Origin: an uncultured Pseudomonadota bacterium
Lineage (GTDB): Bacteria; Myxococcota_A; UBA796; GCA-2862545
DNA: 64,000 nucleotides
Direction: 5' to 3'
Assembly (NCBI GenBank): GCA_903861005.1
Contig: CAIOSP010000068.1
Location: 1-64,000 of the forward strand
Shown: positions 54,490 through 62,423 of the stretch, one piece after another
How the letters are laid out: every line of letters begins with the position of its first letter
How positions within the stretch are numbered: position 1 is the stretch's first letter
Program-made: the position numbers and the translations under genes
The notes under the pieces: generated by a model
What the model saw: only the letters and a program-made list of their open reading frames with translations
The model's database searches: none
Told to the model about the DNA's origin: nothing

Positions 54490-56406
54490 TCACAGGCCCC
54501 GCGGATCGGTGAGCTTGCCGGTGATGGCGCTCGCGGCGGCCACGGCGGGGGAGACCAGCCAGACCGGCCCCGGCGCGCCCATCCGGCGCGCGAAGTTGCG
54601 GTTGGTGGTCGACGCCGTGGTCTCGTCGGGGAGGGGAATGCCCGGCCCGTTGCCGATGCACGACCCGCAGCCGGGTGGCGTGACGACGGCGCCCAGGTCG
54701 CGGAACAGCGCGAGCAGGCCCTCGGACTCGGCCTGGGCCGCGACGTCGGTGGACGACGGCGTGACGGTGAGGCGCACGCCGCTCGCCAGCGTGTGGCCGC
54801 GCAGCACGTCGGCCGCGGCCCGAAGGTCGGCCAGGGAGCCGCCCGTGCACGACGCGATCACCACGTTGTGGATCGCCACGTCGCCGTGCGCGTCGAGCGG
54901 GGCGCGGTTGCGGCTGTCGCCGGGCGTGGCGACCGTGAGGGGCACCTGCTCCAGGTCCACGCGGATCAGGCGCTCGTAGGTGGCGCCGGGGTCGGCGTGC
55001 ACCAGGCGCTCGGTCACGTCGACGCCGCGGCGCTCGCGGAGGAAGTCGACGATCGGCGCGCAGGGCTCGACGACGCCGGTCATCAGGCCGCCCTCGACCG
55101 TCATGTTGGTGAGGACCGAGAGCTCGTCCACGTTCCACTGGGCCAGGCCCGGGCCGCCAAATTCCACCACGCAGGTGTCGGTGGGCGCGGTGCGCCAGTG
55201 CTCCTCGCGGAAGTACGGGTCGCCGATCAGGTGCAGGATCAGGTCCTTGGGGGACAGGCCGCCGAGCGCCTGACCGTGCACGTCCACGCGGACGACCTTG
55301 GGCACGGTCACGGGGATCAAGCCCGTGCGCAGCGCGAACGCCATGGCCGTGCTGCCCACACCAAACGCGAACGCGTTGAGCACGCCGGCGGTGGGCGTGT
55401 GGCTGTCGGTCAGGATGACGATGTCACCGGGCAGCGCGTAGTCCTCGACCACGATGCGGTGGCAGACGCCGGGCGGGAAGGGGCGACCGGGGCCGTGCAG
55501 TCGGATGCCGTTGCGCGTGCACGCCTCGACCATCTCCTCGGTGAGCTGCATCGCGGAGGCGAGGCGCTCCTTCTTGGCGAATTCCGGGACGGCGTCGTGC
55601 GCGATGAGGACGAAGTGGTCCTCGAACGCGGCGACTTGCTCCGGGCGATCCAGGGGCGCTGCGCCCCACTCCGACGCGTAGAGCGACATGACCATGCCGG
55701 TCGTGTACTCGTGCATGCCGCGAAAGCCGCAGCGGGCCAAGACCTGGTCGCCGGGGCCGACGGACGCGATGCCGTCGCGCTGACCGGGGCCACGCCAGGT
55801 GCGCTGCGCGATGATCTTCTCCGCCAGGTTGAGCGGCCGCGCGGGGGTGTCGAGCGGGTACTCAGGGCGCACGCGGCCCGCGAGCAGCTCGGTGCCGTAC
55901 GACAGCAAGCCGCCGTGCTCGGCCACGGTGCGGAAGAAGTCGGGCAGGTCCGCGAAGAACCCACGGACGTCGACGTCCTCACCCGCGTTGAGCCGGTCCA
56001 GCACGCCGCGATCGGTGGTGAACGGCATGCCGCTGTACACCATGTTCTCTTGGAAGATGCGTTGGAAGGAGTCGGCGACGACCAGCTGGATCCCCGCGCC
56101 CTGGTGCGCGACGACCGCCACCTCACGCGACGATCCGGAGCCGTACGCGTGGCCGCCGACGATCACCTGGAAGCCGCCCGAGCGGACGTCATCCTTGCGC
56201 ACGACCTCCTGGAAGGACTCCAGGAAGTAGGGGCCTAGGATCTCGCCCGTGTACCCGTAGGTGCACGCGCGGCCTGAGATCATGGCGTCGGTGTTCACAC
56301 CATAGGTGTAGGCGCCCGACGGGCCGGACAGGTCGGCGCCGTCGAGCTGCGCGCGCAGCCGGGCCGAGTCGTCGACGAGGTGGAGGATGCGTCCGGACAG
56401 CTTCAC
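54490..56406 (-). CDS. Aconitase-family hydratase with N-terminal swivel domain
   Basis: The 638-residue protein carries the small swivel (LeuD-like) domain first (about 1-200, GGHAYGSGSSREVA and FQRIFQENMVYSGMPF). The catalytic LeuC/aconitase domain follows, with TDSHTPTAGVLNAFAFGVG, a Cys in SCTGGSLADLR, and GCGSCIGNGPG with the two other cluster cysteines. In AcnA-type aconitase the swivel domain is last, and in AcnB it is at the N-terminus, behind a HEAT-like domain that is absent here. The reaction is dehydration/rehydration with a [4Fe-4S] cluster. The substrate is uncertain: citrate, isopropylmalate or homoaconitate. It starts at a GTG overlapping the M16 gene stop. Confidence 0.85.
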   Translation of the reverse strand: MKLSGRILHLVDDSARLRAQLDGADLSGPSGAYTYGVNTDAMISGRACTYGYTGEILGPYFLESFQEVVRKDDVRSGGFQVIVGGHAYGSGSSREVAVVAHQGAGIQLVVADSFQRIFQENMVYSGMPFTTDRGVLDRLNAGEDVDVRGFFADLPDFFRTVAEHGGLLSYGTELLAGRVRPEYPLDTPARPLNLAEKIIAQRTWRGPGQRDGIASVGPGDQVLARCGFRGMHEYTTGMVMSLYASEWGAAPLDRPEQVAAFEDHFVLIAHDAVPEFAKKERLASAMQLTEEMVEACTRNGIRLHGPGRPFPPGVCHRIVVEDYALPGDIVILTDSHTPTAGVLNAFAFGVGSTAMAFALRTGLIPVTVPKVVRVDVHGQALGGLSPKDLILHLIGDPYFREEHWRTAPTDTCVVEFGGPGLAQWNVDELSVLTNMTVEGGLMTGVVEPCAPIVDFLRERRGVDVTERLVHADPGATYERLIRVDLEQVPLTVATPGDSRNRAPLDAHGDVAIHNVVIASCTGGSLADLRAAADVLRGHTLASGVRLTVTPSSTDVAAQAESEGLLALFRDLGAVVTPPGCGSCIGNGPGIPLPDETTASTTNRNFARRMGAPGPVWLVSPAVAAASAITGKLTDPRGL

Positions 56407-60271: not shown

Positions 60272-61188
60272 CCCTGATCGACACTGAGATCGTGGCGCCA
60301 GAGGCGCGCTCGTTCGCAGAGAACGTGCGGCTCTACGTCGACATCGCGCGCCCCAAGGTGATGGCGCTCGTGGTCTTCACGGGCCTGCCGGCGTTGGTGT
60401 TGGGCAAGGACGTGTGGCCATCGCCGGGCCGCGCCTTCGCGGTGCTCGCAGGCACGGCCATGGCGGGCGCGGCCAGCTCCGCGTTCAACGCCTACATCGA
60501 GCGCGACTCGGACGCCTTCATGGCGCGCACGCGCAACCGCCCGCTCCCGGCGGCGTCTGTGCTGCCTTTGACCGTGGTCGCCTACGGCGCGCTGCTGACG
60601 CTTCTTTCTTCCGCGGTGCTCTACGCGGTGGGCGGCTTGCTGCCGGTGCTCGTCAGCCTGGCCACCATCGCCTTCTACGTGTTCGCCTACACGATGTGGC
60701 TCAAGCCGCGCACTCCGCAGAACATCGTGATCGGTGGCGCGGCGGGCGGGACGGCGCCGCTGATCGCCAGCGCGGCCATGGACGGCCACATCGGCCTCGG
60801 CGCGTGGATCCTGTTCGCGATCATCTTCCTCTGGACCCCGCCGCACTTCTGGGGCATCGCCATCGTCCGCCAGCGCGAGTACGCCGCGGCGGGCCTGCCG
60901 ATGATGCCGCACGTGGTGGGTGACCAGGGCACCCGTTGGCGCAGCCTGGGCTACACGCTCGCGCTGATTGCCGTGACGCTCCTGCCGGTCTGGCTTGGCC
61001 AGCTCGGTCGTATCTATGCCGTCGCCGCCCTCGGGCTCGGCATGTGGTTTCTCTGGCTTGTGGCGCGTCCTCTTCGGAGCCACCTGCACGCCGACGACTG
61101 GCGCGTTTTCAAGGGCTCCATCGCCTATCTTTCGATTCTGTTCCTTTCGATGCTCGTGGACCTCGCGGTCCCATGGGAGACGAACTGA
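60268..61188 (+). CDS. ctaB: Protoheme IX farnesyltransferase (heme O synthase)
   Basis: The 306-residue membrane protein is a UbiA-type prenyltransferase with about eight helices. The conserved acidic motif is NAYIERDSDAFMARTRNRPLP at about residue 73. FLWTPPHFWGIAIVRQREYA is typical of CtaB. It attaches the farnesyl group to heme B. The GTG start overlaps the ctaA stop, and the stop overlaps the coxB start by one base. Confidence 0.96.
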   Translation: MTLIDTEIVAPEARSFAENVRLYVDIARPKVMALVVFTGLPALVLGKDVWPSPGRAFAVLAGTAMAGAASSAFNAYIERDSDAFMARTRNRPLPAASVLPLTVVAYGALLTLLSSAVLYAVGGLLPVLVSLATIAFYVFAYTMWLKPRTPQNIVIGGAAGGTAPLIASAAMDGHIGLGAWILFAIIFLWTPPHFWGIAIVRQREYAAAGLPMMPHVVGDQGTRWRSLGYTLALIAVTLLPVWLGQLGRIYAVAALGLGMWFLWLVARPLRSHLHADDWRVFKGSIAYLSILFLSMLVDLAVPWETN

Positions 61189-62423
61189 TGTCCACCTCCT
61201 CCGTTCACGCATGGCTGCGCCGCGCGATGGCCGTCGTCGCTGCGGCCTCGCTCGCGGGCTGTGACGCCCTGCCGACCTTGTGGCCTGCCAAGGATGGCTA
61301 CCCCTACACCACGACGGATCCGATCTCGGACTTCGGCCTGCTCTCGCAGCACATCTACGTGACCATCACGGTGGTGGTGTGCGTGGTGTTCGTGCTGGTC
61401 ACCATCCTGCTCGCCGTCACGCTCATCAAGTTCGCGGACCGCGGCACGCCGGGCAATCCTGAGCAGGTCCACGGCAACATCGCGATGGAGATCGGCTGGA
61501 CCATCGCCCCGATCGGCATCGTGCTGTTCCTGATCGTGCCGACCATCCGCACGATCTTCCTGCAGCAGGACGCGGCGCCCATCGGCGCCAAGGACGAGAA
61601 CGGCCAGGTCCTCATGGGTGAGGACGGCAAGCCGCTCCGCCCCGCGGTCGAGATCAAGGTCATCGGCCGTCGCTGGTGGTGGCAGTTCGAGTACGTGAAC
61701 GAGGGCATCGCCACCAGCAACCAGTTCGCGATCCCCGACGATCGCCCTGTGTCGCTGTTCCTCACGTCCGACACCGTCATCCACAGCTTCTGGGCGCCCC
61801 GCATCGGCGGCAAGCGCGACGCGATCCCCGGCCGCGTGAACCGCATCTGGTTCAATCTGACCGAGGACATCGCGCAGGGCCAGCCTGACCACATCCGTGG
61901 TGAGTGCGCCGAGTACTGCGGCGAGGCTCACTCGCTGATGCGCTTCGAAATCCTCGGCCTGGACGGCGCGGACTTCGACAAGTGGGTCAGCGAGTACAAG
62001 GGCGCGCCGACGTTCGCCGACGCCAGCATCAAGCAGAAGGGCGAGGAGGCGTTCTCCGCCGCCGGCTGCACCGGCTGCCACTCCATCTCGGGCTTCGCCG
62101 GCGCCAAGGGCACGCAGGGCCCGAACCTGACCTTCCTCGGTGACCGTCGCTTCCTCGCGGCCGGCATCAAGGACATGTACCCGAATGGCCGCGCCGATCA
62201 GGCGACGGCGCGCGCGGTCCTGACCCAGTGGATCACGAACCCGAACTCCATCAAGCCCGGCACGACGAAGTCGGCGAACGCCTCTCGCGCGCTTGACGGC
62301 ATGAACATCCCTGCTGACGCGAACGGCGACGGCATCCTTTCGCCGGAAGAGTTCGCGCCCGAGAAGGTCGACGCCATCGTGTCGTACCTGCTGTCGCAGA
62401 CCTCCTCCTTCCCCCTCCAGTAG
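61188..62423 (+). CDS. coxB: Cytochrome c oxidase subunit II, lipoprotein with cytochrome c domain
   Basis: The 411-residue protein has a lipobox SLAGC (Cys25) and two transmembrane helices (about 55-80 and 98-122). The CuA cupredoxin domain has His199, Cys240, Cys244, His248 and Met251 (GECAEYCGEAHSLM). A C-terminal cytochrome c domain (about 280-411) has Cys294-x2-Cys297-His298 and a likely Met372 ligand. Residues 377-388 read like a canonical EF-hand loop. I chose the ATG at 61188, with GGGAGA at 7 bases; an ATG at 61173 is an alternative. This caa3-type design lets subunit II take electrons directly. Confidence 0.95.
   Translation: MSTSSVHAWLRRAMAVVAAASLAGCDALPTLWPAKDGYPYTTTDPISDFGLLSQHIYVTITVVVCVVFVLVTILLAVTLIKFADRGTPGNPEQVHGNIAMEIGWTIAPIGIVLFLIVPTIRTIFLQQDAAPIGAKDENGQVLMGEDGKPLRPAVEIKVIGRRWWWQFEYVNEGIATSNQFAIPDDRPVSLFLTSDTVIHSFWAPRIGGKRDAIPGRVNRIWFNLTEDIAQGQPDHIRGECAEYCGEAHSLMRFEILGLDGADFDKWVSEYKGAPTFADASIKQKGEEAFSAAGCTGCHSISGFAGAKGTQGPNLTFLGDRRFLAAGIKDMYPNGRADQATARAVLTQWITNPNSIKPGTTKSANASRALDGMNIPADANGDGILSPEEFAPEKVDAIVSYLLSQTSSFPLQ

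Follow-up and report, generated by a model that had tools for sequence, protein, structure and literature searches.

A putative Dx[DN]xDG calcium loop next to the presumed haem ligand of a caa3-type oxidase subunit II

Does the cytochrome c domain of a terminal oxidase hold a calcium ion beside its haem, and what would the metal do there? The question is raised by the coxB gene in the window, which here means the whole stretch of 64,000 nucleotides that was analysed. A first-pass annotation had described an EF-hand-like loop in the cytochrome c domain of the gene product and had proposed that calcium could tune the domain through which electrons enter.

CoxB was found to be a normal caa3-type subunit II (Table 1). 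The gene starts with an ATG at 61188, and its product scores 168.4 bits with NCBIfam TIGR02866, above the curated cut-off of 147.7. The Pfam families COX2, COX2_TM and Cytochrom_C are all above cut-off, the last with 22.2 bits versus 21.3. The best match in the PDB was 2yev_B (subunit 2, Thermus thermophilus) over residues 36–359, with which CoxB has transmembrane helices, a CuA domain and a fused cytochrome c in common. That subunit II carries a fused cytochrome c domain, as annotated, was borne out by the CTGCH motif, the Cytochrom_C match and an invariant DGM. The gene is preceded on its 5' side by ctaA-like and ctaB-like open reading frames (named from sequence) and followed on its 3' side by COX1, COX3, an additional cytochrome c protein, CtaG (Caa3_CtaG) and a di-haem peroxidase; this set of ctaA/B/D/E/G neighbours resembles that of caa3-type systems.

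Table 1. Positions of coxB and of the features of its product in the window
Feature	Position	Strand	Residues and remarks
coxB/ctaC	61188..62423	+	411 aa; caa3-type cytochrome c oxidase subunit II with fused cytochrome c domain
CuA ligand region	61782..61940	+	His199, Cys240, Glu242, Cys244, His248, Met251; columns invariant in 26-sequence alignment
CTGCH haem c attachment motif	62067..62081	+	residues 294–298; sequence motif, Cys/His columns invariant (26-sequence alignment)
KPG and family-specific insertion preceding the Met ligand	62253..62300	+	residues 356–371, KPGTTKSANASRALDG; in all f1 members
Met372, presumed axial haem ligand	62301..62303	+	in DGMNIP; DGM invariant in eight f1 members
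Dx[DN]xDG EF-type calcium loop (putative)	62316..62351	+	residues 377–388, reads DANGDGILSPEE
Last helix of the cytochrome c domain	62358..62399	+	about residues 391–404; aligned with conserved LSxEQVDxLxxYL helix

The surroundings of the presumed haem ligand are unusual in length. In Thermus, no insertion interrupts the chain between KPG and LSEEDLDALVRYL, the Met region included, whereas the window's CoxB has two inserts around the methionine. The first precedes it and is present in all members of the window's family (f1); the second follows it and contains the calcium-type loop. From the Lys of KPG to the Tyr of the last helix, 33–55 residues were counted in f1 versus a median of 21 outside; the calcium-type loop accompanies segments of 44–55 residues. 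Met372, the sole methionine from KPG to the last helix in the window's CoxB, is the likely axial ligand. Ligation by a methionine at the usual KPGxxM place was considered and rejected, as the window's CoxB has Lys there, within the family a Met occurs there only in L008, and DGM is invariant. L008 (KPGATM...DGMN) carries a methionine at the usual place plus the DGM methionine of the family. The same Met-to-last-helix junction is occupied by another type of insert in the CoxB of family f31 (L078:1407-1775, +, and L052:1396-1782, −), where four cysteines (AAQCTGEGEPDPCCRMIGIGNC and APQCLAAGDPDPCCTEEGRGNC, respectively) are perhaps disulphide-bonded or metal-binding. AlphaFold2 models built from an alignment of the window's sequence with L031 and L032 only reached a pLDDT of 39.7 for the cytochrome c domain and 36.9 for full CoxB; both place a short helix or turn at about 386–389 and a helix from 391 on, and at such low confidence (pLDDT <40) they carry no weight.

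The letters, coordinates, residue numbers and reading frame of the loop proved to be exactly as the first-pass annotation gave them. DANGDGILSPEE fits the EF consensus Dx[DN]xDGx[ILV][DSTN]xxE at positions 1, 3, 5, 6, 8, 9 and 12, and the placement between Met372 and the last helix agrees with the alignment (invariant DGM, helix motif). Among the six-frame open reading frames of the window, no second match to D-x-[DNS]-x-[DNS]-G-x-hydrophobic-xxx-[DE] was detected. When CoxB was shuffled, the relaxed loop pattern arose in 402 of 200,000 shuffles (0.2%) and the strict one in 6 of 200,000 (0.003%). With the canonical EF-hand (Pfam EF-hand_5 / EF-hand_1), CoxB has the loop consensus and the start of the exit helix in common. 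The residues preceding the loop, however, are the Met-ligand segment; an entering helix is not indicated, and a second matching loop as in paired hands was not found within CoxB. EF-hand_5 gave 14.5 bits (E 0.025) on the loop, under the cut-off of 25.9, and Pfam reported no EF-hand match at E <= 1 in the CoxB copies of the genomes G001 and G002. The description as EF-hand-like therefore held for the 12-residue consensus and the exit helix, but not for a complete hand, as the loop is a single copy without a partner and falls short of the Pfam cut-off. On these patterns, the name 'EF-hand' seems to overstate a site of which only loop and exit helix are indicated.

The site is rather a Dx[DN]xDG loop, in surroundings that go unmentioned in the survey of this motif (PMC3123361). 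Loops of this type bind Ca2+ in many unrelated folds, and one of them, inserted into CD2, sufficed to create a site (PMC3123361). CoxB shares with the motif outside EF-hands the same linear pattern, a free residue 7, a downstream acidic residue and then a helix; the words cytochrome and heme are absent from that survey (PMC3123361).

How widespread the loop is was assessed with CoxB homologues drawn from the family (21 genomes), the class (71) and the phylum (379 genomes sampled), of which 81 were compared. Dx[DN]xDG between the Met ligand and the last helix was confined to f1. The EF form was found in three genomes, that of the window (G000), G001 and G002, the latter two with CoxB copies 98% and 64% identical to that in the window. 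The loop of G001 differs solely at position 9 (Gln) and at the first residue past the loop. Two deeper-branching members, G003 and G015, carry a variant DxDxDGYPNxxD loop at the same junction (DTDGDGYPNFSD and DSDGDGYPNFSD). In G006 (57% identity), the loop is broken (PKAGLDGILSEDEF), with Asp1 deleted and Asn3 replaced by Gly and the rest of the domain kept, in G017 it is degenerate (DDPNIPG), and in G013 it is absent from the junction in the f1 alignment. The retention in close homologues on which the first-pass annotation had made its proposal depend was thus seen in a second genus, where motif and ligand positions are kept, but not in G006, G013 and G017. Since some homologues within the family lack the loop or have a damaged one, it is not a general requirement of the oxidase. 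A DNA pattern search of the 379 phylum genomes for Met, a short gap and the EF loop matched, among CxxCH proteins, only the CoxB of G000, G001 and G002; the nine remaining matches were without CxxCH. Matches to coxB or cytochromes in a plasmid search were all <60% identical, and the viral contigs that were scanned contained no further usable CoxB homologues.

The eight f1 CoxB sequences form a single clade (support 100/99), from which G003 with G015 branch first, then G013 and G017, then G006 and finally G002 with G000 and G001. The position of G006 outside G002 is weakly supported (86/46). On this tree, the calcium-type loop would either be old, with several losses or damage, or have had two origins. 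Negative surface charge was also considered as a driver and rejected, as the window's domain is about neutral and the charges in the family, which lie between 0 and −8, do not clearly follow the presence of the loop.

The comparison of G000 with G002 gives an idea of how the loop has been treated by substitution. Although 144 of 397 aligned residues differ (64% identity), the codons at loop positions 1, 3, 5 and 12 are identical, and positions 2, 4, 6 and 8 carry silent changes. Four replacements were found in the loop, at positions 7 (Ile/Val), 9 (Ser/Thr), 10 and 11, which by comparison with the EF consensus are non-ligand or EF-tolerant positions. The probability that four replacements all fall on the six tolerant positions (2, 4, 7, 9, 10 and 11) of twelve is 15/495, or ~0.03, and this clustering is, by count alone, suggestive, not strong. 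Judged from the aligned sequences, the loop is real, well formed and conserved in the nearest kin, including a second genus despite 36% amino-acid divergence.

EF-type loops were also found elsewhere in the genome. A strict EF-type DNA pattern matched 25 times and its reversal not once, so loops of this kind are in frequent use in the organism. Of the 25 sites, the one in CoxB alone is located in a CxxCH protein. The others include a calmodulin-like protein, a frame of 156 amino acids with four strict loops (L106–L109; G000 contig C91, about 55409-55759, −), and a trypsin-like protease (L120:9578-10678, −) with two tandem loops, DENGDGDVSAEE and DRDGDGSVTTDE, near its C-terminus. The protease gene is close to the cta cluster and beyond the window, ~7 kb downstream of coxB. 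A looser screen, for Dx[DNS]xDG alone, covered 30 distinct CxxCH open reading frames. It found the motif in two multi-haem proteins of the di-haem oxidoreductase (DHOR) type (DDKDGDGISGRPN and DDQDGDGVSGRVN), ~100 residues after CxxCH, and in two further CxxCH frames, far from any haem. The DHOR-type proteins (PF06537; L137:397-2895, −, and L138:475-2943, +) share a conserved DDxDGDGxSGRxN segment. As they carry Dx[DN]xDG as well, CoxB is not the only c-type haem protein with the motif; the DHOR-type proteins, however, are unrelated to CoxB, have the motif within the DHOR domain and lack an EF-type Glu12.

Calcium has been linked to cytochromes c in other systems. In the diheme cytochrome c Kustd1711, a c-type haem has a Ca2+ site on its distal (Met) side, as proposed here for CoxB, and removal of the ion sharply lowers the unfolding temperature (PMC11791136). 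There, the ion is bound via backbone carbonyls, a haem propionate and water, whereas side chains of an inserted loop would bind it in CoxB. Cytochrome cL of methylotrophs, a cytochrome c that accepts electrons and binds a metal close to its haem, is comparable to what is proposed for CoxB, but its site, near the haem propionate, is made up of Gly, Asp and Tyr, without an EF-type loop (PMC9728263). TfcP of Myxococcus xanthus is another bacterial case in which a cytochrome c and calcium are connected; in contrast to the oxidase subunit CoxB, it is not considered a component of respiration, and no Ca2+ binding by TfcP itself was detectable (PMC8833165). Literature on EF-hands together with caa3 or c-type cytochromes yielded nothing relevant beyond TfcP, which, with partial coverage, is weak evidence for novelty.

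The CoxB loop is probably a Ca2+ site, and a structural role for this candidate site is most likely. In the explanation favoured here, with modest confidence, a structural Ca2+ would staple the enlarged Met-ligand loop to the C-terminal helix. According to this proposal, the Met-ligand segment became enlarged in f1, and some members would have added a single Dx[DN]xDG loop before the helix. One Ca2+ would be held by Asp377, Asn379, Asp381, the carbonyl of Ile383, Ser385 (via water) and Glu388. The last of these lies just ahead of the last helix, and the ion would tie the long loop to the helix and thereby make the haem pocket more rigid on its distal side. Binding, geometry and stabilising role are proposed from residue positions. 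The structural reading is preferred because enlarged Met-ligand segments seem to be held by different devices, the loop in one family and the four-cysteine insert in the other; the likeness to the latter suggests that a cross-link may be useful at this junction. Against it stand the restriction of the canonical loop to three genomes, one of them nearly identical to that of the window, the lack of Asp1 and Asn3 in the near relative G006, and the Gln at position 9 in G001. Calcium is normally plentiful in the periplasm; the ion would therefore be bound constitutively, and changes in haem potential or partner docking, if any, would be side effects of its presence. The loop probably serves to stabilise its surroundings and cannot be called a proven calcium switch.

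Alternatively, the bound ion might be a functional tuner, its charge raising the midpoint potential of haem c or shaping the docking face for the donor and so altering electron entry. The candidate site does adjoin the Met ligand in sequence, and there is precedent in Kustd1711, where Ca2+ lies 6.9 Å from each haem iron and the potential is up by several hundred mV (PMC11791136), and in cytochrome cL with its metal near the haem propionate (PMC9728263). In both precedents, however, the metal occupies a different type of site close to the haem rather than an EF-type loop, and relatives whose oxidase is otherwise the same lack the loop or have a broken one. That relatives lose the loop so easily weakens the idea of tuning, which is regarded as unlikely. 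Calcium tuning of electron entry, as put forward by the first-pass annotation, is thus possible but unsupported, and control of the haem c potential, or gating of electron entry, by the occupancy of an EF-type site beside the Met ligand appears more doubtful still.

Single EF-type loops without a partner are often weak binders. The loop could accordingly be an acidic, flexible surface insertion for partner docking or without a role, and without useful Ca2+ affinity; the junction tolerates several kinds of inserts, and Asp/Gly-rich EF-type segments are common in the genome. This is considered rather unlikely, as replacements avoid the ligand positions, several sites are kept via silent change, and a merely acidic loop needs no full 12-residue consensus with Leu8, Ser/Thr9 and Glu12. 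An EF loop that arose by accident in a random insertion would fit the lack of the loop in most homologues and the broken version in one close relative. Such a chance resemblance is nevertheless very unlikely in view of the rarity of both patterns among the shuffles, the retention in a second genus at 64% identity and the three CoxB as the only CxxCH proteins matched by the pattern of Met and EF loop in 379 genomes.

If the CoxB loop binds calcium, the Dx[DN]xDG motif would stand in a structural setting new for it, and a terminal oxidase would have a lineage-specific metal site adjoining the haem through which electrons enter. Within f1, natural versions of CoxB exist with the loop intact, broken or missing, so that the effect on stability and potential would be directly measurable in related domains.

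Past the end of the window, a cytochrome c domain protein of 282 amino acids is encoded between the COX3 and CtaG genes (L120:4994-5839, +); the calcium-type loop is absent from it. Further along, two adjacent open reading frames (L120:10801-11475 and L120:11492-12205, −) match C-terminal and more N-terminal parts of DUF4331, respectively, and look as if they were one split gene.
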